Shown here: positions 3,521 to 48,431 of the stretch, in pieces | Numbering within the stretch: the stretch's first letter is position 1 | Layout of the letters: every line of letters begins with the position of its first letter | DNA from: a virus | Direction: 5' to 3' (one strand) | Length of the DNA stretch: 64,000 bases | Virus record (IMG/VR): IMGVR_UViG_3300048672_000475 | Location: 16,857-80,856 of that record | Notes under the pieces: generated by a model | Told to the model about the DNA's origin: nothing | What the model saw: only the letters and a program-made list of their open reading frames with translations | Database searches by the model: none | Made by a program: the position numbers and the translations under genes

Positions 3521-4330
3521 TTATACCGCAACCGGCGCTTTGATAGCCGCATGGTGGTGGTAGTTGATAAGTTCGAAATCTTCGACTCGGTAATCGAAAA
3601 TAGAATCCGGCTTACGTTTAATCCGCAACTGCGGTAGCGGGTACGGGGTTCTAGTAAGCTGCAATTCAGCTTGTTCTAGGTGGTTTAGATAAAGATGTAC
3701 ATCAACGCCGGAGTAAACCAACTCGCCTACGCCAAGATCGCATTGCTGAGCAACCATGTGCGTCAACAACGCATAACCCGCCACATTAAAAGGATTGCCT
3801 AAAAACACATCATTCGAGCGCATCGTGAAATGGCAATTCAGTTTGCCGTTGGTTACGGTAAACTGAAACATTACGTGGCACGGCGGTAATGCGGCATCGT
3901 AGATGTCCATCGGGTTCCACGCTGATACCACTAACCGTCTTGAATCCGGGTTTTCTTTTATCTGCGCTATAACATCGGTTATCTGGTCTACCCCATCCGA
4001 ATACGCGCCGAAGGGTTCTCCGCCAAAATTGCGCCACTGATAGCCGTAGATCGGACCTAACTCTCCGTCTTCAGGGTCGGCCCACTCGTTCCAGATAGTC
4101 ACGCCGTTATCGGTAAGATATTTTACGTTCGTCTCTCCGGACAACATCCAGAGCAATTCGTGAACAACGGACTTAAAGTGTATTTTCTTCGTCGTTACCA
4201 GCGGAAAGCCTTTTGCTAAATCGAACCGCATTTGCCGGCCAAATACGCTGAGCGTACCCGTACCGGTGCGGTCGCCTTTCTGAACACCGTTCTGCATAAC
4301 GTCTTCGAGCAAATTGAGGTACTGTTTCAT
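3521..4330 (-). CDS. thyA: Thymidylate synthase (ThyA type)
   Basis: Methylates dUMP to dTMP using methylenetetrahydrofolate. The 269-residue protein has the expected length and motifs: DRTGTGT with the phosphate-binding Arg near residue 21, the paired arginines in [12 protein letters not shown], the catalytic Cys151 in [10 protein letters not shown], and [12 protein letters not shown], which corresponds to the conserved RSxDxxLGxPFN segment. The neighbouring DHFR regenerates its cofactor. The start overlaps the preceding stop as ATGA, and the TAA stop sits in the start signal of the next gene. Confidence 0.97.
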
Positions 4331-4713
4331 TTTTCCTCCTCCAGTAGATGTCCAAAATTGTCGCGTAGCTCTTTAATATAAGCGTCTGGCAATTCATTTT
4401 TGCGTATTCTGGTCCCTAGGCGATTTATAATTTCTACGGCCTCCTGGTGCCATTTACAAGCAAGTACTTCCGCCTCATGTTGCTCAAGTATTTCCGGTGT
4501 GGCTAATATGGCAATCGGGCGAATGCCGAAAGCAATGTCCCCTACCTGCAGTCCTGTATCTTTTCTGAACCTCTTAGTTTTTGTAACTACTTGGGTGCGC
4601 GTTACTTTAGTCACTATATGCAGCTCATAAGTAGGTCTTAGCCCTGTCCAATAGGTCCCCACCACCGGCGTTGCTATTTTGTCGCCCTCTTTTACGTCCG
4701 CTAGCCCCACCAT
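4327..4713 (-). CDS. Hypothetical protein
   Basis: A 128-residue protein, not recognised. The N-terminal half is beta-rich and begins with [13 protein letters not shown], reminiscent of small SH3-like barrels; the C-terminal half is a charged helix ending EEEK. Its end provides the GGAGG ribosome-binding site for thyA, and its ATG shares a base with the upstream stop (TAATG). Confidence 0.6.
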
Positions 4714-4940
4714 TAGAGTTTCACCTCAAAATATTCGGCACTTCCGACGTCTCGGTGCGTGGTAATCAGGTCATCGATAAGCGCGTCCCAGTAGATATTC
4801 GGCGCCTGTATCAGTAACATCGCATCCGCTTCATCCACAACTACTCGGCATAAATGCCCGTCTCTGACTTGGGATACCAGATAGCGTGAACCTTTGTGGT
4901 ACACGCGGCTTTTGTCTGTTCTGGCTAATATTTCGGGCAT
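4713..4940 (-). CDS. Hypothetical protein
   Basis: A 75-residue protein starting MPEILARTDKSRVYHKG. The reading frame is open further upstream, but the ATG at 4940 overlaps the previous stop (TAATG) and follows GGAGGTGTG, so this start fits best. No recognised domain. Confidence 0.6.
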   Translation of the reverse strand: MPEILARTDKSRVYHKGSRYLVSQVRDGHLCRVVVDEADAMLLIQAPNIYWDALIDDLITTHRDVGSAEYFEVKL

Positions 4941-5293
4941 TACACACCTCCCAAACGGCTGTATACCTGCACCCACAACATCGCGATTATGCTTAAGATG
5001 GCTACTATCCGCCATGCGTTCAGCTTTTTGGGGAGGTCGGTATTCGTATCGTATTCGGCAAAATACTTATCCTTCCAGCTTTCGGCTTCTGCGTACGCCC
5101 GGTCGCGGCTTCGCGCCGCTTTATTTTCCATTTCGATTGCCGTTTCTACCCGCAGCTCTGCGGCTTCCAAGAACGGTTCTACGTCATCCCACCGAACCCA
5201 CTCCCCGGAGTCGCATTGTTCCATGGGCCCGAATTTTAAGAAGCCCTGGTTGTACAGCTTTACGCCGTATTCTTTCGCATATGTAGTTTTCAT
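4940..5293 (-). CDS. Tail-anchored hypothetical protein
   Basis: A 117-residue protein with a long charged helix (about residues 45-85, rich in Glu, Arg and Ala; probable coiled coil) and one hydrophobic segment near the C-terminus (WRIVAILSIIAMLWVQVY), so probably anchored in the inner membrane by its tail. Family unknown. Translationally coupled to the next gene. Confidence 0.6.
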   Translation of the reverse strand: MKTTYAKEYGVKLYNQGFLKFGPMEQCDSGEWVRWDDVEPFLEAAELRVETAIEMENKAARSRDRAYAEAESWKDKYFAEYDTNTDLPKKLNAWRIVAILSIIAMLWVQVYSRLGGV

Positions 5294-5294
5294 T

Positions 5295-5537
5295 TTAGTA
5301 CTCGTCCAATTCTTCCAGTTTTTGATCGTACCCGGCTACCACGTCGCTAAGTTGGTCTAGCGGTAGGGAGAGGTGATTTAGCAAGCGGCCTATGATTTCC
5401 TCTAGCGCTTCGACTTTATATCGTAGGGTTTCTAAGCTACCCTCACCGTAAATCCGGTCCATATGATACGAGAAATACTGCTCTGGACTTTCAAAGGCGG
5501 GGCGACTTAAATACATTTCGCAAGACGTGAATTTCAT
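5295..5537 (-). CDS. Hypothetical protein, first gene of the thyA operon
   Basis: An 80-residue acidic protein with a likely coiled coil (LRYKVEALEEIIGRLLNHL). It is the first gene after the promoter at 5577-5605 and is preceded by CACCGAAGAGGAAACAAA, the second type of conserved start-associated sequence found in this phage. Confidence 0.65.
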   Translation of the reverse strand: MKFTSCEMYLSRPAFESPEQYFSYHMDRIYGEGSLETLRYKVEALEEIIGRLLNHLSLPLDQLSDVVAGYDQKLEELDEY

Positions 5538-5576
5538 TTTGTTTCCTCTTCGGTGATTGTTGATAGTTCGGAGCTG

Positions 5577-5605
5577 ATACTACAGCCCCGAAGACTATGT
5601 GTCAA
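5577..5605 (-). promoter_or_regulatory. Sigma-70-like promoter for the thyA operon
   Basis: On the minus strand TTGACA (5600-5605) is separated by 17 bases from TAGTAT (5577-5582). It lies between the end of the polymerase C-half and the 5537 gene, pointing into the thyA-folA operon. Confidence 0.7.
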
Positions 5606-5608
5606 GTG

Positions 5609-6964
5609 CTATTTATGGTATCTGTAAGATTCTTTTCCTTCCGCTGCGAGGGGCAGACCTTCCGCCCAATCCGGCACTACGGACATCAATTCGCAAAGCC
5701 TTTTTACTGAATAAGTGGGGGCGTCTGGAACTTCTGTTACCAGCTCATCGTGTACCTTCAAAACGATGTCGTAGTTCTCTTTCGAGGCCAGTACTTCACC
5801 GTGCTTGAATACATCCCTAGCGCCCGCCTGGGTGCAATTTTCAGCGATTTTTCCAGCCCCTGTCATAATATCGCCCCATTGTTTACTGAACTGGTTTATG
5901 CCTCTGAACACCAGTTTTCCTGACTGCGTGCTGTCGTCTTCTTCAACGATATCGCCGTTTTCGTCGAAATCACCTTTCTTTTTGGTTTTTCCTATTCGCA
6001 TGCCAGGGTATGGGATTACTCTCCCGCTTGGTAAAACAATTAGAACCCATTTCCCCTTGCGGACCGCTTTGCATTTTCCAAACGGGAACGGCACGTTAGG
6101 CACCTCCACCGCGTATCTCATCGCTTGTTCAGCGTCTTTCCAAAACTTACAGATCGCTGGGTGCTCTTTACGCCATTGTCGTTTCAAGCAGTCTATCGCT
6201 ACGAAAACGTCTTTCGACATCCCAAAAGTTTTCTTTGGCTCGTAGAAATCTTCCCAAGAGCAAAATGAGTCGTCACTTTTTTCTGCTTTGTTTTCCGCCT
6301 CTTTGCGATCCATTCCGTCTAACCACTCGTAAAACTTCTCGGCTTCGCTTATAATCTCTGGATTGGCGTACGGAAGAACCGTATCCGGAAGCGTATTCAG
6401 GTCTATCTTATTTGCGAAAGCAAGAAACGCGCCAACTCCACCTTGGAACCCGAAAGCCAATTCCATCACCTTGCCTATGGACCTCTCCTTATCCCCTATA
6501 GCGTCAATGGACATACGGAAAGCCTTTGCGAAAGCTGCGACGTATAAATCCGGCCCCTCACGTTTCGGTTTCCCTTTACTATCAAATACCCGATTTCCGT
6601 TTTCATCCAGAATGAAAGTGTCGTATTTCTTAAAGGCTTCTAACTTCCATTTTTCGCCGGCCAACCAAGCTAAAAAACGGCCTTCGATGTTGGCTAAATC
6701 AGCCACAACCAATTTCTTCCCCTCTGGTGCGCAGATAGCGTATCGCAGGGCGCTGCTGCACAATTCCATCGTGTCGTACCCCAATAAATCTTGTACGCCA
6801 TTCTTTACAGCGTCAATTCCGGGTATAATGTCGGCTTCTTCAAGGGTTGGTCTTGGAAAATTCTGTGGCTGTACGATTCGCCCACAATTAGATACCACGA
6901 CCCCATTGGCAGTGAATCGGTGCCTAGGCCCCGCGTTTATAATGTCATAGACCTTGGCCCTCAT
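5609..6964 (-). CDS. DNA polymerase A, C-terminal half with split-intein C-fragment
   Basis: The first 26 residues are a C-terminal intein fragment: VYDIINAGPRHRF (block F) and ANGVVVSN ending in the catalytic Asn26. Residue 27 is the Cys that becomes the first residue of the C-extein (CGRIVQPQNFPRP). The 425 extein residues hold the family A polymerase core: motif A in VADLANIEGR, motif B in RSIGKVMELAFGFQGG, motif C in KVHDELV. The N-half with its intein fragment lies two genes upstream, so active polymerase should need protein trans-splicing. The ATG overlaps the stop of the GIY-YIG gene (ATGA) and follows GGAGAGAGAA, so it is a real translation start and not a frameshift artefact. Confidence 0.93.
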   Translation of the reverse strand: MRAKVYDIINAGPRHRFTANGVVVSNCGRIVQPQNFPRPTLEEADIIPGIDAVKNGVQDLLGYDTMELCSSALRYAICAPEGKKLVVADLANIEGRFLAWLAGEKWKLEAFKKYDTFILDENGNRVFDSKGKPKREGPDLYVAAFAKAFRMSIDAIGDKERSIGKVMELAFGFQGGVGAFLAFANKIDLNTLPDTVLPYANPEIISEAEKFYEWLDGMDRKEAENKAEKSDDSFCSWEDFYEPKKTFGMSKDVFVAIDCLKRQWRKEHPAICKFWKDAEQAMRYAVEVPNVPFPFGKCKAVRKGKWVLIVLPSGRVIPYPGMRIGKTKKKGDFDENGDIVEEDDSTQSGKLVFRGINQFSKQWGDIMTGAGKIAENCTQAGARDVFKHGEVLASKENYDIVLKVHDELVTEVPDAPTYSVKRLCELMSVVPDWAEGLPLAAEGKESYRYHK

Positions 6965-7899
6965 TTCTCTCTCCGCTTCATGCCTTTAGCGTCTATCGTC
7001 TTCATAAGAGATTCCTTTCTAGCGTCTATGTGGGCCCGATACCGAATAGGGTCTTTTCTAAGTTCTTCCCAAAACTTTTTCACACCCTTGCTGGCCGCAG
7101 CTTTTTGAACCTCTCTATCTATTTTTTTCCTAGCGTTCGCGATAAGTTCCGCGTTTTTAGCTTTTAGCTCTGGGTCGTTCGCCAACGTATTCTTTAGGGA
7201 CTCGCCTATCTTCTTGCCTATTTCTTTTATTTCCTCTTCGGATCTACCCGCCCAGATTTTAGTAGTGGCTCTAGCATGGGATAAGTGTATGCCTTTGTGC
7301 TTGGCTAGTAATCTTTCCTTCAGAGGTCTAGCTGCCAATTCATCTCGTTTAGCCTGCTTCGCCCCCGTTGTTGTGTTTACCTTCATAGCGCAGCGCAAAG
7401 CACGCATCGCTATTTTGTACGCTTCTCTGGGGTTTTCTTTTTGCCATTTCTGTCCTCTTTTTGGCAAATGGGCATGTGCCTCTGGGCCTCTAGCTTGTTG
7501 AGCATCGCAAAGTCTTTGAATGTACGCAGCTCTAGCTTCAGGGTCTTCATCTAAACTACTCCAAAACAACCTAGCGGCTTCACTTTGAGCTATTTTTCCT
7601 AAACCACCGGATACCACGTTATACAAGTTATCTAGTCCGTGTTGTGCGATATGCTTTCTTTCCGCCTCACTAGCAATGCCCCTATCCGGGCACTCTTCTA
7701 AGATTTCTACTGTGAAAGCGTCTGGGCCAAAATGCAGTATAGCCTTATAAAAAGGCTTATCCGCGTATTTAGGAATTAGCGCCCTTCTCTTGTGATACCC
7801 CCACCTTTCAGCTATCGGCATAGATGTAACGCCTATATACGCGATGTTATCGGGCGCCGTTATTTTATAAATTAAGTGTTTTTTGGTGTAGATTCCCAT
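6961..7899 (-). CDS. GIY-YIG homing endonuclease inside the fractured polymerase
   Basis: A 312-residue free-standing endonuclease. The GIY-YIG catalytic domain fills the first ~95 residues: LIYKITA and AYIGVTS (the GIY/YIG strands), the Arg in AERWGYHKRR, and the metal-binding Glu in ASEAERKHI. The rest is a long basic DNA-binding tail with repeated helical units typical of NUMOD-like modules. It starts 28 bases inside the end of the polymerase N-half gene, with GGGGAG upstream of its ATG, and ends overlapping the C-half gene. This position, exactly between two intein halves, suggests that it spreads the broken polymerase allele by cutting intact ones. Confidence 0.9.
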   Translation of the reverse strand: MGIYTKKHLIYKITAPDNIAYIGVTSMPIAERWGYHKRRALIPKYADKPFYKAILHFGPDAFTVEILEECPDRGIASEAERKHIAQHGLDNLYNVVSGGLGKIAQSEAARLFWSSLDEDPEARAAYIQRLCDAQQARGPEAHAHLPKRGQKWQKENPREAYKIAMRALRCAMKVNTTTGAKQAKRDELAARPLKERLLAKHKGIHLSHARATTKIWAGRSEEEIKEIGKKIGESLKNTLANDPELKAKNAELIANARKKIDREVQKAAASKGVKKFWEELRKDPIRYRAHIDARKESLMKTIDAKGMKRREK

Positions 7900-9143
7900 A
7901 ACTTTAAACTCCCCAGTTTAGCTTCAAATAGATGGCAAGATTTTCCACCTTCTAAATATACCACATGATCTGGGGTGGCGCAAATCCCGCCGTACTCAAC
8001 GACATCTTGTTCGCCTTTACATACTACGCCTTCGTGCGGCACCCATTCGATGCCGTCCCATACGCTATCCGAGATAAGCACGCTCTCTATCGGCTTCTCG
8101 ATGACCTCCCCCGCTGCCGTTTTTACAGCAATCAATGTTCCTTCTGCGAGGCAGTCCCTAGAGGTTCTGGACGCGCCGGCGTATTGGATAGTCCCCTTTA
8201 CGCGGTCTCCAGCGCAGATCGCTTTTTGAAATCGCTTGTATTTGGCGGTAGATGAAGTGCAAGTGGATAGCCTGACCTCCAGTAGTTCTCTAAGATTCTC
8301 TGGGAGTTCGTCGTCTTTAATCAGCTTTTCTAACGTAGCTTTTTGTAGGTTTGGAAGTTCTATTCCAAAAGCCGAAAACACGTACTTGAGAACGGCATCG
8401 CGCTGGGACGCGGCTTTAACCTCGTTTTCCGTTATTTCCTGGGTACGCGCCGCCAGATGCTTTTTCTCGATTTCTATTTCCCGAACGGAGGCATCAACAA
8501 ACTCCATGTCGACATACAGGCCTCGGTCGTTAATCTCCTGATCCAGAAACCACAACTCCAGCTCGTTCTCGCGCGGGTAGTTCCACTTTGGCAGCTTCTT
8601 GGTAATCTCGCGCATGGCTGCGGTATCGGTAATGGCGTACTCTTTATACCGCTCCCACTCTTCGGGGTGTGTAAAAGGGGTTTTCCATTCGATAGAACCG
8701 TCTTTTTTCTTTTGCGGCTTGCAGAACAGCATCATTAGCCGCTTGCCGTCTTTGATCTTCCGCGCATCTTCACGGATGTTCAAAACTTCGCCACACTTTT
8801 CTAGGCTTCCTGGCAAGGCATGCGAGAGTGCTTGTGCCATCGAGCAGCGAAAACGCCGAATAGGCATATCCAGCTTGAGGCAATGGCGTAGGATTAGCCG
8901 GTCGAACTGAGCATTATGGAACGTCCAAATATACGAAGGGTTGTGAAGGTATTCATGTAAATCCTCCGGCATCGGTTCACCAGAATGCTTATCCCAAAGC
9001 TTCACTTCACCGTCGCCAAGTGCGTAGCTGAACAATTGCAGGTGGGTACTGGGATCTTCTGCGTACCTGTAGCCGCCACACGTTTTGAGGTCAATGAGTG
9101 AGCCGGTTTCGGTATCACCCCAGCACATAGGAAAATCGGTCAT
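7872..9143 (-). CDS. DNA polymerase A, N-terminal half with split-intein N-fragment
   Basis: The first 330 residues carry a 3'-5' exonuclease domain: DTETGS near residue 10, FHNAQFD near residue 75, YAITDTAAM near residue 169. They run into the polymerase domain up to YAGASRTSRD. Residue 331 starts an intein: CLAEGTLIAV (block A, Cys1) and ATPDHVVYLEGG (block B with its His), ending after 93 intein residues. No polymerase motif A, B or C is present in this half. With the 26-residue C-fragment the intein totals 119 residues, the size of a mini-intein. The extein junction SRD/CGR restores a normal polymerase sequence. Confidence 0.93.
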   Translation of the reverse strand: MTDFPMCWGDTETGSLIDLKTCGGYRYAEDPSTHLQLFSYALGDGEVKLWDKHSGEPMPEDLHEYLHNPSYIWTFHNAQFDRLILRHCLKLDMPIRRFRCSMAQALSHALPGSLEKCGEVLNIREDARKIKDGKRLMMLFCKPQKKKDGSIEWKTPFTHPEEWERYKEYAITDTAAMREITKKLPKWNYPRENELELWFLDQEINDRGLYVDMEFVDASVREIEIEKKHLAARTQEITENEVKAASQRDAVLKYVFSAFGIELPNLQKATLEKLIKDDELPENLRELLEVRLSTCTSSTAKYKRFQKAICAGDRVKGTIQYAGASRTSRDCLAEGTLIAVKTAAGEVIEKPIESVLISDSVWDGIEWVPHEGVVCKGEQDVVEYGGICATPDHVVYLEGGKSCHLFEAKLGSLKLWESTPKNT

Positions 9144-9370
9144 AATTCGCCGTTCTCCAGTACGCGTACCGAAATTGTTTTTTCGATATCAATCGGCCTA
9201 AGGTTTAGCGTCGAGAAATATTCCGGGAGGACCATTCGGGTCGTAGCCTCTTCTAAATTGGCTACAAAATTGATGTACGCGGGACGGTCCAGCTCATCTA
9301 CCCGGTACTGCAGGTACCGTCCTGTTAGGCTATCTTGCCATACCCGGCTGCGGTATTGGTACGTGCGCAT
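9140..9370 (-). CDS. Hypothetical protein
   Basis: A 76-residue protein, not recognised. It overlaps the start of the polymerase N-half by 4 bases and is preceded by TAGAGAACTAAA, a divergent form of the conserved start signal. Confidence 0.55.
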   Translation of the reverse strand: MRTYQYRSRVWQDSLTGRYLQYRVDELDRPAYINFVANLEEATTRMVLPEYFSTLNLRPIDIEKTISVRVLENGEL

Positions 9371-9403
9371 TTTAGTTCTCTAGTTCAAAATTAAAAGGCG
9401 CGG

Positions 9404-9604
9404 TTACTCGTCACCGGACTGTAAGAACCACCGTGTGCCCGTTCCGCCGCATAGCGAACACGTTTGCTTTGTTCTATTGCGGCACAGATCGCCGAAACCT
9501 AACTCCGACCAACGCCATCCTCTGCCGGAGCAGGTCTTACATAGCTGCGGCACTCGTGCCGCTTCACCCGGCTCAATTATTTCTTCTACGTTATCTACTC
9601 GCAT
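9404..9604 (-). CDS. Small double zinc-finger protein
   Basis: A 66-residue protein with two CxxC-x-G-x-G units: CKTCSGRGW near residue 22 and CSLCGGTGT near residue 51. This is the DnaJ-type zinc-finger pattern without a J domain. Such mini-proteins are common in phages and of unknown role. Start supported by ACTGGAGAAATGAA before the ATG. Confidence 0.65.
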   Translation of the reverse strand: MRVDNVEEIIEPGEAARVPQLCKTCSGRGWRWSELGFGDLCRNRTKQTCSLCGGTGTRWFLQSGDE

Positions 9605-9624
9605 TTCATTTCTCCAGTTAGTAT

Positions 9625-9744
9625 TGGTGCGCCTGCTGGGAATCGAACCCAGGTACTCGCCTGAAATAAGGAACCTATCCGCAATTTGCGGCTCCGAGTA
9701 GTTCTCTACTCACGTTTCGCGCTCTACCGTTGAGCTACAGGCGC
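9625..9744 (-). tRNA. Aberrant tRNA gene with a ~41-base insertion
   Basis: On the minus strand the ends form a proper tRNA: acceptor GCGCCTG pairs with CAGGCGC; discriminator A and an encoded CCA follow; the D arm is GCTC-AACGGTA-GAGC; the T arm is CTGGG-TTCGATT-CCCAG. Between D and T arms there are about 41 bases more than in a normal tRNA, and no 5-bp stem with a 7-base loop can be found. The insert folds instead as two hairpins, GAGTAG-AGAA-CTACTC and GGAGCC...GGTTCC. A GAAA/TTTC helix could close them. The anticodon is therefore unclear. It could be a tRNA carrying a removable insert, a decayed tRNA, or a tRNA-like RNA. Confidence 0.6.
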
Positions 9745-9751
9745 TATAAAA

Positions 9752-9779
9752 TACTCCCGACCCTAAAGCCGGGAGTAGC
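9752..9779 (-). terminator. Rho-independent terminator after the ssDNA-binding gene
   Basis: The minus strand has an 8-bp stem (TACTCCCG / CGGGAGTA) with a 10-base loop followed by TTTTATA. It lies 8 bases past the end of the ssDNA-binding protein gene and just before the tRNA, so the polymerase genes beyond depend on read-through or on an unseen promoter. Confidence 0.75.
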
Positions 9780-9786
9780 GTACCTA

Positions 9787-10347
9787 TTACAACAAATCGT
9801 CGTCGTCGAAATCCGATCCAAGATCGTCCAAGCCATCCGCAGTGGCTGGCGCCGCACCGCCGAAAGATTCTCCGTCTTTGACGAACTGGACGGTAACCAG
9901 TGTTGCTCGGATAGCGTTACCGTAGCTATTTGATTGCGCCCAGATTTCAACAATACCGTTAACCCAAGCCCCGGAATAGATTTTTCCATCTTTAGCCGAT
10001 AATGGGTTTCTGTTTCTGTCCACTACCATTGGTCGACCATCATCCTGATTACGTGTAGCCGTCAGCGCCCAATTACCGGCATAGCCGTTGTATGTACGGC
10101 GGTTACCGTCAATGAAGCAGCAGGCTTTTTTGTCGATGAGGATCTCAGGCAGCAATACGTCTGCCTTAGCGCCCCATTTAGCTTTCGCCACCTCTTTAAT
10201 CGCGGCATCGATTTCCGCTTTGCAAGGGTTGTCTGGCGCGATCAGAAACGTTGATCTGTACTGGAACGGGCCTTGGTTTTTGTACTGGGTAGCTTCAAAT
10301 ACGTCTGGAAATGCCAAACGCGCATTTTTGATAATGATTCTTGCCAT
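9787..10347 (-). CDS. ssDNA-binding protein (DUF2815 family)
   Basis: The 186-residue protein matches the phage DUF2815 family, which provides single-stranded DNA-binding proteins for replication. Visible features: the start MARIIIKNARLAFPDVFEA, YRSTFLIA, NWALTATR, and KIYSGAWVNGIVEIWAQ, followed by a flexible tail ending in an acidic cluster (GSDFDDDDLL). Such acidic tips recruit other replication proteins in SSB families. It follows the DUF2800 gene by 12 bases, the usual partnership in phage replication clusters. Confidence 0.88.
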   Translation of the reverse strand: MARIIIKNARLAFPDVFEATQYKNQGPFQYRSTFLIAPDNPCKAEIDAAIKEVAKAKWGAKADVLLPEILIDKKACCFIDGNRRTYNGYAGNWALTATRNQDDGRPMVVDRNRNPLSAKDGKIYSGAWVNGIVEIWAQSNSYGNAIRATLVTVQFVKDGESFGGAAPATADGLDDLGSDFDDDDLL

Positions 10348-10359
10348 TTTATTTCTCCG

Positions 10360-11739
10360 TTAAATTAAGTCGTCCAACGTGACGTTGGAATAATCAGGTA
10401 GTTTTGCGATTTGCTCCCCATAGGGATCAAAACTCTCTCGTTTGTCGCCCATCGGAGCGACGACCAGCTTGCCTTCTGGCCGCGTAATCAGTTCTTCTAA
10501 CTGCCTCCACTTCTTAGGACTTTGCGCCCTAATCAGCTTCTCGGCTGTAGGAACCGATATAACGGATTTGTCGTACATCTCATCGACTTTAAACTTCATC
10601 CGTTTTAAAGCGGCCTCAGCGTCTTGCTCGGACGTCCACTTCCGGTTTCCTTGCCGACCGCGCACGATTTTGTAATGCGGCGTTTTGTGCCCATTCAACA
10701 TATCGTGCATCATGCGGTCTTCGATACCTTCCGCCCACATCTTGATCTTCTTCGTTACGCCGTACAGCTTAACCAGCGTTTCAAAGTCCACCTCGGTAAT
10801 GCGTAGCAGCGCGGCATCCATTTCAGCATCCAGATTGGTCAACCCGTCCGCTGTTGCTGGCGCAATCTGCATGTCGGATAAACACTCATTTTGCAACGCG
10901 GGGCAGGCCGCCTTCGCCTTGCACCACGTACAGCCTTTTTCCGATGGTCTTAAATACATACCCGCCCATTCGTCAAAAGTGCCTGGATTATCTGACATCC
11001 AGTCGTGGTCGTTTAGCTTCGCTATCGCTTCCTCGGCCTTGGCGACCGCCGCCTTAGCTTCCTCCGCAAACTCAAACAATCTAGCCGGTGTGGTAATCCA
11101 CGGCGGGTCTTGTGTTGAAGTTCGCGGCTGGAGGATCTGCAAATCAATGTTTTCGAGTTCGCCCAGGTCTATCAGGTAGTCGAACTCGAACAGCGCGCCT
11201 AAGGCGTACAGCATCATTTGCATGTTTTCGACCGGGGATACCGGCTTGAATCCATACTTCAAATCCCGTACTTTGAGCGTTTTACCGTCATTGCTGACGA
11301 TAATCGCGTCGCCTGTACCGAACGCACCGGGGTCGCCGATATAGTCCCCGAAGCGCACCCGCTGTTCAACGAGCAGGGTGCCATCTTTAGCCGCTTCGCT
11401 AACCTGATCGATGTAGGTCTGTACGTAGCGCGCCATATCGCGAGTGACTTCCCACTCGCTCGATAGAACGCTATTTTCAGGTATCGGCGTAAACGAGAAT
11501 GCTTGATACGCTCGGCCTTCATAGGTATAGCAGACGATGGTTTTACCGATATGCTCATCGGCGTCTACTAGGCCAATTAAACACTCCGCCGCTAAAAAAT
11601 GTGCGGCGGAACCCTCGTCAGCATAAGGAGAATACTTTTCCTCCTTACCCTGTTCCATTGCTATTTTGCCGGGGCAGTTAAACCAGCCCTCCGCCCCGGA
11701 AGCCGAATAGCGATGATGCTGTTCGACTAGCTCGCTCAT
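10360..11739 (-). CDS. DUF2800 family protein, PD-(D/E)xK nuclease-like
   Basis: A 459-residue member of the DUF2800 family, related to the Cas4/RecB-type PD-(D/E)xK nucleases. Typical elements are HHRYSASGAEGWFNCPG at the N-terminus (the first family motif), DEGSAAHFLAAECL, then GTGDAIIVSNDG and KVRDLKYGFKPV (the D...DxK core, about residues 140-165), and a C-terminal Cys cluster (CTWCKAKAACPAL) that could hold an iron-sulphur cluster. It is normally found next to DUF2815, as here, and is thought to process DNA ends for replication or recombination. Confidence 0.85.
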   Translation of the reverse strand: MSELVEQHHRYSASGAEGWFNCPGKIAMEQGKEEKYSPYADEGSAAHFLAAECLIGLVDADEHIGKTIVCYTYEGRAYQAFSFTPIPENSVLSSEWEVTRDMARYVQTYIDQVSEAAKDGTLLVEQRVRFGDYIGDPGAFGTGDAIIVSNDGKTLKVRDLKYGFKPVSPVENMQMMLYALGALFEFDYLIDLGELENIDLQILQPRTSTQDPPWITTPARLFEFAEEAKAAVAKAEEAIAKLNDHDWMSDNPGTFDEWAGMYLRPSEKGCTWCKAKAACPALQNECLSDMQIAPATADGLTNLDAEMDAALLRITEVDFETLVKLYGVTKKIKMWAEGIEDRMMHDMLNGHKTPHYKIVRGRQGNRKWTSEQDAEAALKRMKFKVDEMYDKSVISVPTAEKLIRAQSPKKWRQLEELITRPEGKLVVAPMGDKRESFDPYGEQIAKLPDYSNVTLDDLI

Positions 11740-17895: not shown

Positions 17896-17940
17896 TTGAA
17901 CCTCCCCATGCCTGAAGGCAGGGGGATTCCTGACTACGCC
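17896..17940 (-). ncRNA. Probable omega-RNA 3' scaffold at the IS right end
   Basis: In IS605 elements the TnpB guide RNA (omegaRNA/reRNA) is made from the 3' end of tnpB and the right end, with the guide reading into flanking DNA. Here a stable hairpin (17903-17925) follows the tnpB stop and ends near TTCAA. The predicted guide would begin with ATCAAAATTTATTGCC outside the element. Expression is not shown by the sequence. Confidence 0.5.
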
Positions 17941-18986
17941 AGACATTGGCGTACCTCGTGGGCCGTTCCAGCCCCGGAAATTAGAGTGTTGATCGCTGCA
18001 TTTACGTCGCGATCATGATGCGTTCCACACGCCGAACACTCCCAATCCCTCACCGACAGTCCTGCTAATCCTGTAGGGCCTGTTAGGCTCCCGCAAGTTG
18101 AGCAAATCCTGGTGGAATTTTTGGAAGCAACCTCGACATATTGAGTACCGCCTGCACGGCTCTTGTACTCAAGCATTGACCGAAGTTGTGCGTGACCGCT
18201 TGAGGCCACGCTCTTCCCGAATTTCTTGGCAATCCCTTTGATATTATCTTTGGAAAAATAGATAACGGTATTTTCCTGTACCAAACGTAATGACAACTTA
18301 TGATTTCTGTCCTTGCGTTGGTTCCGAATGCGCTCATGCTGCCTTGCTACTAATTTCCTGTTAATGCCACGTTGCGCCTGAGCCAAGCGTTTTGCGGATT
18401 GATGCAATTCTTTTGGATGGTCAATCTTTTCGCCGTTTGAAGTCGTTAGCAAATCCTTGAAACCGGGATCAATGCCGATAACGCCCTCTGCCTTGCGCGC
18501 TATCGTCTTGCGCTCGGAATCAATAAACAGACACAAATACCAGCCGGATGCGCGCTTAACGATACGACCACATTTGATTTTGCCCACTGGAATATCTTGC
18601 TTATGGAACCGGACAGTTCCTATTCCAGGCAATTTGACATGATTGTTTTCCGGCGTACGGATAGGATCGGGAAACGGGATGCTGTTTAATTTGTTACGCA
18701 TTCCTTTTAACTTAGGTTTGCCGCCAATCTTTTTAAAACAACGCTTCCACGCTATATAGGCAGTTGCCAACATGCCTTGTACGGTATGGCTTGGAATACC
18801 GATTTTCTTGCCATGATCCGCCAACAGGTTTTGAAAACCATTCGGTGTGTAATAGATACCACCTTTTGAGTCATTCTCTATTTTACGGATAGCCCAATTC
18901 CAGACGCCCGTAAGCATAAATAACCATACGTCCAACAATGAAGACTGAACAACGTTGAGCCTAAGTTTTAATTGAGTCTGGATCAT
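17934..18986 (-). CDS. tnpB: TnpB (RNA-guided nuclease family), canonical RuvC-II Glu absent
   Basis: A 350-residue TnpB. RuvC-I is present (GIDPGFKD, Asp173), the zinc finger is intact (CSTCGS near 296 and CSACGT near 318), and RuvC-III is present (HHDRDVNAA, Asp327). In the RuvC-II strand, where most TnpBs read I-x-x-E-D-L-N-x-K-G, this one reads VIYFSKDNIKG, so the catalytic Glu position (residue 245) is Ser. The TGPxGLxGLxVRDWEC stretch puts it in a large proteobacterial branch; TnpBs with a relocated Glu are known, so loss of cleavage does not follow. It is otherwise full length. Confidence 0.9.
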   Translation of the reverse strand: MIQTQLKLRLNVVQSSLLDVWLFMLTGVWNWAIRKIENDSKGGIYYTPNGFQNLLADHGKKIGIPSHTVQGMLATAYIAWKRCFKKIGGKPKLKGMRNKLNSIPFPDPIRTPENNHVKLPGIGTVRFHKQDIPVGKIKCGRIVKRASGWYLCLFIDSERKTIARKAEGVIGIDPGFKDLLTTSNGEKIDHPKELHQSAKRLAQAQRGINRKLVARQHERIRNQRKDRNHKLSLRLVQENTVIYFSKDNIKGIAKKFGKSVASSGHAQLRSMLEYKSRAGGTQYVEVASKNSTRICSTCGSLTGPTGLAGLSVRDWECSACGTHHDRDVNAAINTLISGAGTAHEVRQCLA

Positions 18987-18989
18987 CGG

Positions 18990-19397
18990 TTAAACCTGCT
19001 TTTGGTTCTCAATATACTGTTTAATTATTTCCAACGGCGCACCGCCCACGGTGGAAACAAAATAAGAATTAGTCCAAAGCGTCGGCAGCCTGGATTTAAG
19101 CTGTTTAAACTCAAGCCGTAAAACGCGCGATGTCCTACCCTTAATGGTTTTAACCAGGCGATGAATGCCAAACTGTGGATCGACCTCAACCAACAAATGT
19201 ACGTGATCCGGCATAACCTCTAACTCAATCATCTCTGATTTAAACTCGATACATACGTCTTGTATAATTTCTTTAAGTCTGGTTTCTATAGTACCAATTA
19301 AAACTTTTCGTCGGTACTTGGGGCACCATACGACGTGGTACTTACACGAATAAACCACATTGCTGTTTGACTTATATTTTATGCTAAAATTGCTCAT
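18990..19397 (-). CDS. tnpA: IS200/IS605 Y1 transposase TnpA
   Basis: A 135-residue single-strand DNA transposase of the HUH family. The HUH motif is PDHVHLLVEV near residue 64 and the catalytic tyrosine is in IIKQYIENQ near residue 128; the N-terminal VVYSCKYHVVWCPKYRRKVL is diagnostic. Length is typical and nothing is broken, so the element may still be mobile. Its own promoter lies at 19404-19431. Confidence 0.95.
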   Translation of the reverse strand: MSNFSIKYKSNSNVVYSCKYHVVWCPKYRRKVLIGTIETRLKEIIQDVCIEFKSEMIELEVMPDHVHLLVEVDPQFGIHRLVKTIKGRTSRVLRLEFKQLKSRLPTLWTNSYFVSTVGGAPLEIIKQYIENQKQV

Positions 19398-46892: not shown

Positions 46893-48431
46893 ATGAAAAG
46901 AGCGGTAACCGAAAAAACGGAGGCCCTTAAAGAAAAGTTACGTGGCGAGGGGAGAGTGATTTTCCTTAACCGAATGCAAGAGATGTACGGCGACAAGCTA
47001 GATCTTAGCTTGGTTCAATACGTGAATTCGCAGACCAAAGTAAAGGTACGATGTGTAGAGCACGACCATGTTTTTGAGGGTAAACCAAACAATTTAGGCA
47101 TGGGTAAGACAGGATGCCCTACTTGCACCACGGCTAAAAAGAAAGCGGCTAATCCGAATACGCTGTCTCAAGAAACTTTTCTTGCTAAGTGCAGAGAAGT
47201 ACACGGCGACAAATATGATTACTCAAAAACCGTATACGAATCCGCGCACAAAGAAGTCACAATAATCTGCCCGGAGCATGGCGAATTCACGCAGCTAGCT
47301 AGATCACACCACAAAGGGCAGGGGTGTAGGCGGTGCGCTCGCATAGCTATTACGAATAAGCAGTTGGGTAATTTAGAAGACTTTATCGCAATAGCAACAG
47401 AAGTTCATAAAGGCAAATACGACTATAGGCTAGCGGAGTACGCGGGAAATTTAACCGCTGTAAAAATACTCTGCAAGGACCACGGTATATTTGAGCAGAA
47501 TCCAAAAGACCATAAGCAAGGGAACGGATGTCCAAAATGCGGAGTTACAGGACCGTCTAAAGCTGAGGCCGAAATAGCGGAATATGTGAAGTCTTTAGTA
47601 GAAGGTGTACGGACCAGCGATAGGTCGGCCATAGCCCCGAATGAACTGGATATTTATGTACCGGATAAAAATTTGGCTATCGAATTCAATGGTGTTTACT
47701 ACCACTCCGAAAAATTCATATCCAAAGATTATCACCTAGAAAAACTAAAGAAATGCAATTCAGCAGGCATAGACCTGATACAAATATTTGAGGATGAGTG
47801 GGAGGATTTAGGAAAACGCGAAATCGTAAAATCCATGATTTCATCCAGATTAGGAGCTAACGGTACTCGTATTTATGCGAGAAATACCGCTTTAGAGGTA
47901 GTCCAGACTAAAGAAGCGCGGACGTTTCTTGACGCTAACCATATACAAGGATTTGCGGCCACAGGAACCTACTATGGCCTACGAACAAAAGACGGCGAAT
48001 TGGTATCCGTAATGGCGTTTTCTCCCCCAAGGCGGTCTATAACGCGGGCGAAAACGGAGTACGAGTTAGAGTTGGTTCGGTACGCACCCAAACTATTTAC
48101 CACTGTTGTAGGAGGGTTCTCCAAGTTACTTAGCCCGGTAAAAGGTAAGCGGATAGTGACGTATTGCGATAGGCGGCTATTTAACGGAAACGGATACAAA
48201 GCGGTAGGTTTCAGAGTGGTTAGGGAAAATCCACCTGAGTATTACTACCTACACCGAAAAACTCGAAATTTCAGGCATTCACGATTAGGGTTCCAACGAA
48301 AACACCTAGAGAAAAAACTTGAGAATTTTGATCCGGCCAAAACTGAACATCAAAACATGCTAGATCACGGATACCGCAGGATTTACGGATGCGGTACTAT
48401 AACGCTCGTACTGGACAAAGGTAATACATGA
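46893..48431 (+). CDS. Vsr-like (EDxHD) homing endonuclease with zinc-repeat DNA-binding arm
   Basis: A 512-residue protein. The first ~215 residues are three zinc-binding repeats of the DUF723 kind (KFxxxHGDKYDYSKTVY, ICPEHGEF, GCRRC; similar units near residues 30, 100 and 170). They are followed by a Vsr/PD-(D/E)xK-like nuclease core: NELDIYVPDKNLAIEFNGVY, YHSEKF, and IQIFEDEW. This is the layout of I-Bth0305I-type homing endonucleases. It lies between ligA and the large terminase gene and overlaps the latter by 4 bases, with its own promoter. The C-terminal ~200 residues are of unknown role. Confidence 0.85.
   Translation: MKRAVTEKTEALKEKLRGEGRVIFLNRMQEMYGDKLDLSLVQYVNSQTKVKVRCVEHDHVFEGKPNNLGMGKTGCPTCTTAKKKAANPNTLSQETFLAKCREVHGDKYDYSKTVYESAHKEVTIICPEHGEFTQLARSHHKGQGCRRCARIAITNKQLGNLEDFIAIATEVHKGKYDYRLAEYAGNLTAVKILCKDHGIFEQNPKDHKQGNGCPKCGVTGPSKAEAEIAEYVKSLVEGVRTSDRSAIAPNELDIYVPDKNLAIEFNGVYYHSEKFISKDYHLEKLKKCNSAGIDLIQIFEDEWEDLGKREIVKSMISSRLGANGTRIYARNTALEVVQTKEARTFLDANHIQGFAATGTYYGLRTKDGELVSVMAFSPPRRSITRAKTEYELELVRYAPKLFTTVVGGFSKLLSPVKGKRIVTYCDRRLFNGNGYKAVGFRVVRENPPEYYYLHRKTRNFRHSRLGFQRKHLEKKLENFDPAKTEHQNMLDHGYRRIYGCGTITLVLDKGNT

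Follow-up and report, generated by a model that had tools for sequence, protein, structure and literature searches.

How a phage could obtain a working replication polymerase from a gene that is broken in two, with a nuclease gene lodged between the halves, is the question raised by a locus in the window, the 64,000-nt stretch of DNA analyzed here (positions 16,857-80,856 of the 80,856-base IMG/VR virus record IMGVR_UViG_3300048672_000475). The record also encodes a phage terminase and portal, a primase, and single-strand binding and exonuclease proteins. The polymerase locus consists of three overlapping genes on the minus strand (9143-7872, 7899-6961, and 6964-5609). A sequence-only reading had described a family A DNA polymerase encoded by two genes, the first ending in a 93-residue intein N-fragment (IntN) and the second starting with a 26-residue C-fragment (IntC), and a 312-residue GIY-YIG gene overlapping both. 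Coordinates, lengths, junction residues, and overlaps all proved exact on re-reading, and a Shine-Dalgarno-like stretch is indeed present before the nuclease gene and before the C-gene, as that reading had proposed. The features are:

7872-9143, minus strand: N-gene, 423 aa (330 aa of polymerase and the 93-aa IntN)
8154-9143, minus strand: N-extein, 3'-5' exonuclease and start of the polymerase domain, 330 aa (Pfam DNA_pol_A_exo1, 1.7e-6), ending GASRTSRD
7872-8153, minus strand: intein N-fragment, 93 aa and stop, starting CLAEG, with Cys1 and block B T60/H63
7909-7914, minus strand: Shine-Dalgarno-like GGGGAG of the nuclease gene, within the IntN coding sequence
7872-7899, minus strand: overlap of N-gene end and nuclease start, 28 nt
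6961-7899, minus strand: GIY-YIG gene, 312 aa (Pfam PF01541, 7.4e-6)
7618-7881, minus strand: GIY-YIG catalytic domain, residues 7-94, from Pfam, the confident part of the predicted model
6969-6974, minus strand: Shine-Dalgarno-like GGAGAG of the C-gene, within the nuclease coding sequence
6961-6964, minus strand: overlap of nuclease stop and C-gene start, 4 nt, ATGA
5609-6964, minus strand: C-gene, 451 aa (the 26-aa IntC and 425 aa of polymerase)
6887-6964, minus strand: intein C-fragment, 26 aa, MRAKVYDIINAGPRHRFTANGVVVSN before CGR, ending VSN ahead of Cys+1
5609-6886, minus strand: C-extein, palm and fingers of a family A polymerase, 425 aa and stop (Pfam DNA_pol_A, 5.9e-9), beginning CGR

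We propose, with a probability of about 0.86, that this locus is a fractured polymerase gene, carrying a split intein that acts by trans-splicing and a cassette that spreads by nuclease-driven homing. A class-1-type intein in a family A polymerase would have been opened, at the point where a nuclease normally inserts, by a free-standing GIY-YIG gene, and the three overlapping genes would be translated separately, each from its own start. IntN and IntC would then associate and fold as a single intein, and splicing via Cys1, Asn119, and Cys+1 would join the exteins of 330 and 425 residues into a 755-residue polymerase. The nuclease, in turn, would cut intein-less polymerase genes, whose repair would copy in the IntN-nuclease-IntC cassette.

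Related loci, labeled L below, were gathered from IMG/VR and bacterial MAG contigs by a two-sequence and then a nine-sequence intein alignment search, giving more than 100 loci. About 20 non-duplicate loci (some clipped by contig ends) have the polymerase split at the same position as in the window. Thirteen carry a full-length GIY-YIG gene between the halves (the window, L031, L054-L057, L066, L074, L123, L125, L140, L179, and L195, the last with a broken IntN reading frame); in some other split loci the nuclease genes are incomplete or broken. Recurrence of this layout at one polymerase site in many unrelated contigs places it far beyond chance. Divergent split loci agree in gene order, start positions, and catalytic residues, and wherever a split locus has a full nuclease, the nuclease start falls at IntN codon 83-89, whereas the frames vary: the offset from N to C is 0 or 1 (2 in L195) and that of the nuclease 1 or 2.

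These data bear on whether an assembly or sequencing error has disrupted what is in truth a single uninterrupted intein carrying its endonuclease in frame. Most related inteins elsewhere in the polymerase are contiguous, as such an error would imply, but the other two frames of 6961-7899 are crowded with stops, so the single continuous frame for which the sequence-only reading had suggested looking does not exist. A dozen independent contigs, moreover, share the split, with start codons of their own and, in most cases, Shine-Dalgarno-like sites. The fixed nuclease start combined with varying frames excludes a sequencing error, and we regard error of either kind as exceedingly improbable. The same combination disfavors a conserved frameshift mechanism, in which programmed frameshifting or bypass through the nuclease gene would produce one long cis-splicing intein. 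Gene overlaps of a few bases would suit such a mechanism, but it is at odds with the differing frame relations, with a start codon on each gene and a Shine-Dalgarno-like stretch on most, and with L128, in which the intein is split by just a 193-nt gap without a nuclease gene; we consider it very improbable. The 4-nt overlap of nuclease and C-gene recurs in L055, L056, L066, L140, and L179 (1 to 25 nt in other loci), and coupled re-initiation is probable at this ATGA in the window.

Judged from its sequence, the host protein is a family A DNA polymerase with exonuclease and polymerase domains and their catalytic motifs. The joined exteins align from end to end with intein-less phage polymerases, the closest being L002 (46% identity), in agreement with the earlier claim that joining restores SRD/CGR at a conserved polymerase site. 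The exonuclease and polymerase motifs DTET, NAQFD, VADLANIEGR, and VHDE are intact as read by eye. This intactness argues against a decaying polymerase in a phage that relies on another one, as do purifying selection on relatives with the same layout and the fact that the C-gene is the sole source of family A polymerase matches within the 80,856-base record. The record may be a fragment, with a second polymerase possibly encoded outside it; nevertheless, decay seems to us highly unlikely.

The insertion point lies between TGRW and (A/S)GR, and invaded relatives read around TGR(W/F/Y/D) followed by (S/C)GR; L054 and L123, for example, carry Trp or Phe at -1 and Ser at +1. In every one of the 19 invaded polymerases whose junction can be read, the +1 residue is Ser or Cys; it is Ala in 58 of the 70 rows scored as uninvaded (Fisher 5e-12, a p-value that is only a guide since the rows are related). 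Two of these 70 rows, L124 and L048, are misfiled, and the contrast is stronger without them. At this point the intein-less sister polymerase L002 reads RD/AGR and the window RD/CGR, suggesting that the odd Asp at position -1 probably comes from the polymerase lineage and the Cys from the intein.

All of the class 1 intein residues, namely Cys1, T60/H63 (in the block-B-like stretch ATPDHVVYL), Asn119, and Cys+1, are present in the window. Cys1 and the T60/H63 pair are invariant in nine split sequences, YDIINAG and the terminal SN of IntC are invariant among the aligned split relatives, and the terminal Asn and the Cys/Ser at +1 are invariant across the split set. The penultimate residue of the window intein is Ser instead of the usual His; together with Asp at -1, this unusual residue could result in slower splicing or side cleavage. 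In close pairs of relatives, dN/dS is 0.03-0.11 for IntN and 0-0.10 for IntC.

No significant intein match was obtained with the joined window intein in single-sequence searches of Pfam, NCBIfam, and PDB, and a DNA-level search among phages gave no match. Our intein profile A4 gave weak PDB matches, topped by Npu DnaE-type and NEQ068 split inteins, none of them significant. Since the single-sequence searches returned nothing significant, recognizing the intein needed alignment and fold. The cis mini-intein of L052, found at the same polymerase site, gives a confident predicted model (pTM 0.81), of which the best 27 PDB matches are inteins or related Hint-fold domains (RecA, gp41-1, Npu DnaE, DnaB, and others). 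Similarity to sequence profiles of known inteins did not reach significance, while a Hint fold at this polymerase site is seen in the predicted model of L052.

One further alternative is that the polymerase pieces act as non-covalent subunits and that the intein pieces are dead relics. Polymerase genes of T4-like phages are split without splicing, which counts in its favor, and Asp-1 and the penultimate Ser are atypical. Dead relics are, however, hard to reconcile with the strong purifying selection on the intein fragments of relatives, with the invariance of Cys1, block B, and Asn, or with a +1 nucleophile where uninvaded homologs mostly have Ala; as for non-covalent subunits, the break falls inside a conserved polymerase motif. 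We therefore consider this alternative improbable, and infer from the sequences that the polymerase halves of this phage are probably joined by intein splicing. Support for the earlier proposal of a fractured polymerase with a natural split intein comes from the independent loci, the matching folds, the purifying selection, and the distribution of +1 nucleophiles.

The catalytic residues of the nuclease (Y11, Y21, G23, R32, H36, E80, and N94) are invariant in 15 nuclease sequences. Its predicted model matches the I-TevI catalytic domain (1mk0, probability 1.00) and includes a long helical C-terminal region, and dN/dS in close pairs of relatives is 0.15-0.23. Independent loci, the I-TevI-like fold, and purifying selection in relatives all agree with its identification as a GIY-YIG homing gene, which would cleave intein-less polymerase genes. 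A two-sequence nuclease alignment search recovered just the L031 contig and one partial relative, L112. A group I intron around the nuclease gene was also considered and rejected, as no Rfam intron occurs within 4000-11000 of the window.

Movement of the cassette is best seen in L123 and L125, which come from different metagenomes. Their polymerases are 61% (left) and 73% (right) identical at the nucleotide level, and 93% identity is found over 4938-6269 (1.33 kb), an island that contains the element (5001-6233) and whose edges lie 63 nt before and 36 nt after the intein. A three-segment model beats a single rate by 158 log-likelihood units. Because short co-conversion tracts are predicted for homing, this island points to IntN, nuclease, and IntC homing as a whole, and we regard this sequence comparison as direct comparative evidence that the split element homes as one unit. 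Weaker islands in L055/L066 and L184/L185 go in the same direction, with their best breakpoints off the intein ends. Mapping the presence of this intein onto the polymerase tree requires 14 changes, and well-supported branches force at least 12 of these gains or losses. The same-site inteins form one group with a support of 93, which carries modest weight given the few columns. The window cassette has no close relative (intein 42-55% identity, nuclease 26-37%), so its own copy gives no sign of recent homing. The suggestion that the nuclease could mobilize the whole arrangement gains direct comparative support from the L123/L125 island in relatives, not from the window's own locus.

Several alleles occur at this polymerase site. 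L052 and L053 have contiguous mini-inteins, whereas L128 is split as described above, L058 has an unrelated 115-residue ORF between the polymerase halves, and L183 has about 1.1 kb between them without a recognizable nuclease. Since L128, L058, and L183 stay split, the split can outlive the nuclease. The linker of L052 retains KMRTYDIINAGP, and MRTYDIINAGP is the start of the split C-fragment; from this retained sequence, our guess is that L052 is a re-fused split ancestor. We tentatively suggest, at somewhat less than even odds, that the split intein of this site is a stable, self-standing mobile allele, with three-gene homing, a split that outlasts the nuclease, and maybe occasional re-fusion as in L052. 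The sequence-only reading had seen in the window a new split mini-intein with Cys1 and Cys+1; these residues are confirmed, but the intein is one allele of a widespread same-site family and does not stand alone.

Other arrangements of inteins were observed in these polymerases. L053 (6001-7190) and L058 (2213-4295) have two same-family inteins at two different sites. In L180 (1579-2987), the IntN of the TGRW site is joined via a broken nuclease to the IntC of the motif B site and the intervening polymerase is lost, which is explained either by a deletion from one intein into the other or by a chimeric assembly. Split inteins are also found at other polymerase sites, with a GIY-YIG gene in L104 (6001-7050) and, in L078/L086 (6001-6970), with an ORF that overlaps the C-fragment and, by eye, resembles HNH genes; these are apparently independent fractures. 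Finally, contiguous same-family inteins at other sites enclose a shifted-frame ORF in L040 (4146-4949), L042 (4431-4853), L113 (4078-4836), and L197 (6139-6957), the intein frame staying open in all four. Inspection by eye suggests an HNH-like ORF in both L040 and L197, that of L113, SO-1 gp39, is annotated as HNH, and no Pfam nuclease match was found for those of L040 and L042. Hidden out-of-frame HNH genes occur in a phage methylase, there without an intein (PMC11855218). The shifted-frame ORFs inside contiguous inteins could represent a step preceding the fractured gene.

Elsewhere in the window, 9628-9744 (minus strand) holds a gene resembling tRNA-Arg(CCT) whose anticodon arm is interrupted by a 41-nt insertion. 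The D and T arms and the acceptor, which has an encoded CCA, are intact (Rfam tRNA, 48 bits), and ARAGORN detects the gene only with introns allowed. A bacterial phage would not be expected to have short introns in its tRNA genes; among the sequences retrieved around related polymerases, the one similar feature is a 17-nt insertion in L067. Immediately ahead of the terminase lies a large HNH/homing endonuclease-like gene (46893-48428, plus strand), and a transposase gene is located at 17937-18986 (minus strand) with a small neighbor at 18990-19397.

A replication polymerase found in many phage lineages thus joins the short list of enzymes seemingly made by protein trans-splicing. The site offers natural replicates, i.e., empty, one-gene mini-intein, split with nuclease, and split without nuclease, so the origin, spread, and persistence of split inteins can be tested there, and the roughly 20 new natural split inteins are candidate ligation tools. 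If the stable mobile allele were confirmed, the site would display the full life cycle of split inteins, from birth to fate, with an essential polymerase dependent on trans-splicing.

Fractured genes, in which a split intein and a free-standing homing endonuclease interrupt conserved replication or repair enzymes, mainly of phages, were reportedly described by Dassa et al. in 2009. The split is said to fall at the usual endonuclease insertion point in eight enzyme types, reportedly with Vsr-like nucleases in half of the loci. The window shares with these genes the broken enzyme gene, the matching intein fragments, and the separate endonuclease ORF between the halves, and its family adds a series of alleles as well as an identity island that shows cassette movement. 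Gp41-1, NrdJ-1, IMPDH-1, and Npu DnaE are small split inteins with N parts similar in size to that of the window, but their host proteins differ from it; the L052 model matches the structures of gp41-1 and Npu DnaE, with about 16-18% identity in structural alignments. Contiguous inteins of the same sequence family are common, and partly annotated, in phage polymerases. Those of APSE-1 P45, Gardnerella phage AB1, Streptococcus Javan phages, and Caulobacter RW are in the same enzyme but, unlike the window, at other sites (motif B, near motif C) and in an uninterrupted frame. The window nuclease shares the catalytic fold and residues of I-TevI and other GIY-YIG homing endonucleases, whereas I-TevI is intron-encoded and the window nuclease lies between two gene halves and has its own long helical C-terminal region.

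The nearest parallel is AceL NrdHF, a fractured phage-like gene with a GIY-YIG gene between the parts of a 98+48 residue split intein, for which trans-splicing was demonstrated by experiment (PMC7891396). AceL NrdHF is a class 3 intein without Cys1 in a ribonucleotide reductase (PMC7891396), whereas the window intein has Cys1 and resides in a DNA polymerase. Assignment of the window to the known kind of fractured genes is thus borne out, and a GIY-YIG gene in such loci was already known from AceL NrdHF (PMC7891396). Our literature search, whose scope left aside the enzyme list of Dassa et al. 2009, returned no fractured family A polymerase. The fractured-gene kind is therefore already known, and what is new is the family A polymerase as host, within the literature searched, together with the allelic series and the evidence for mobility.
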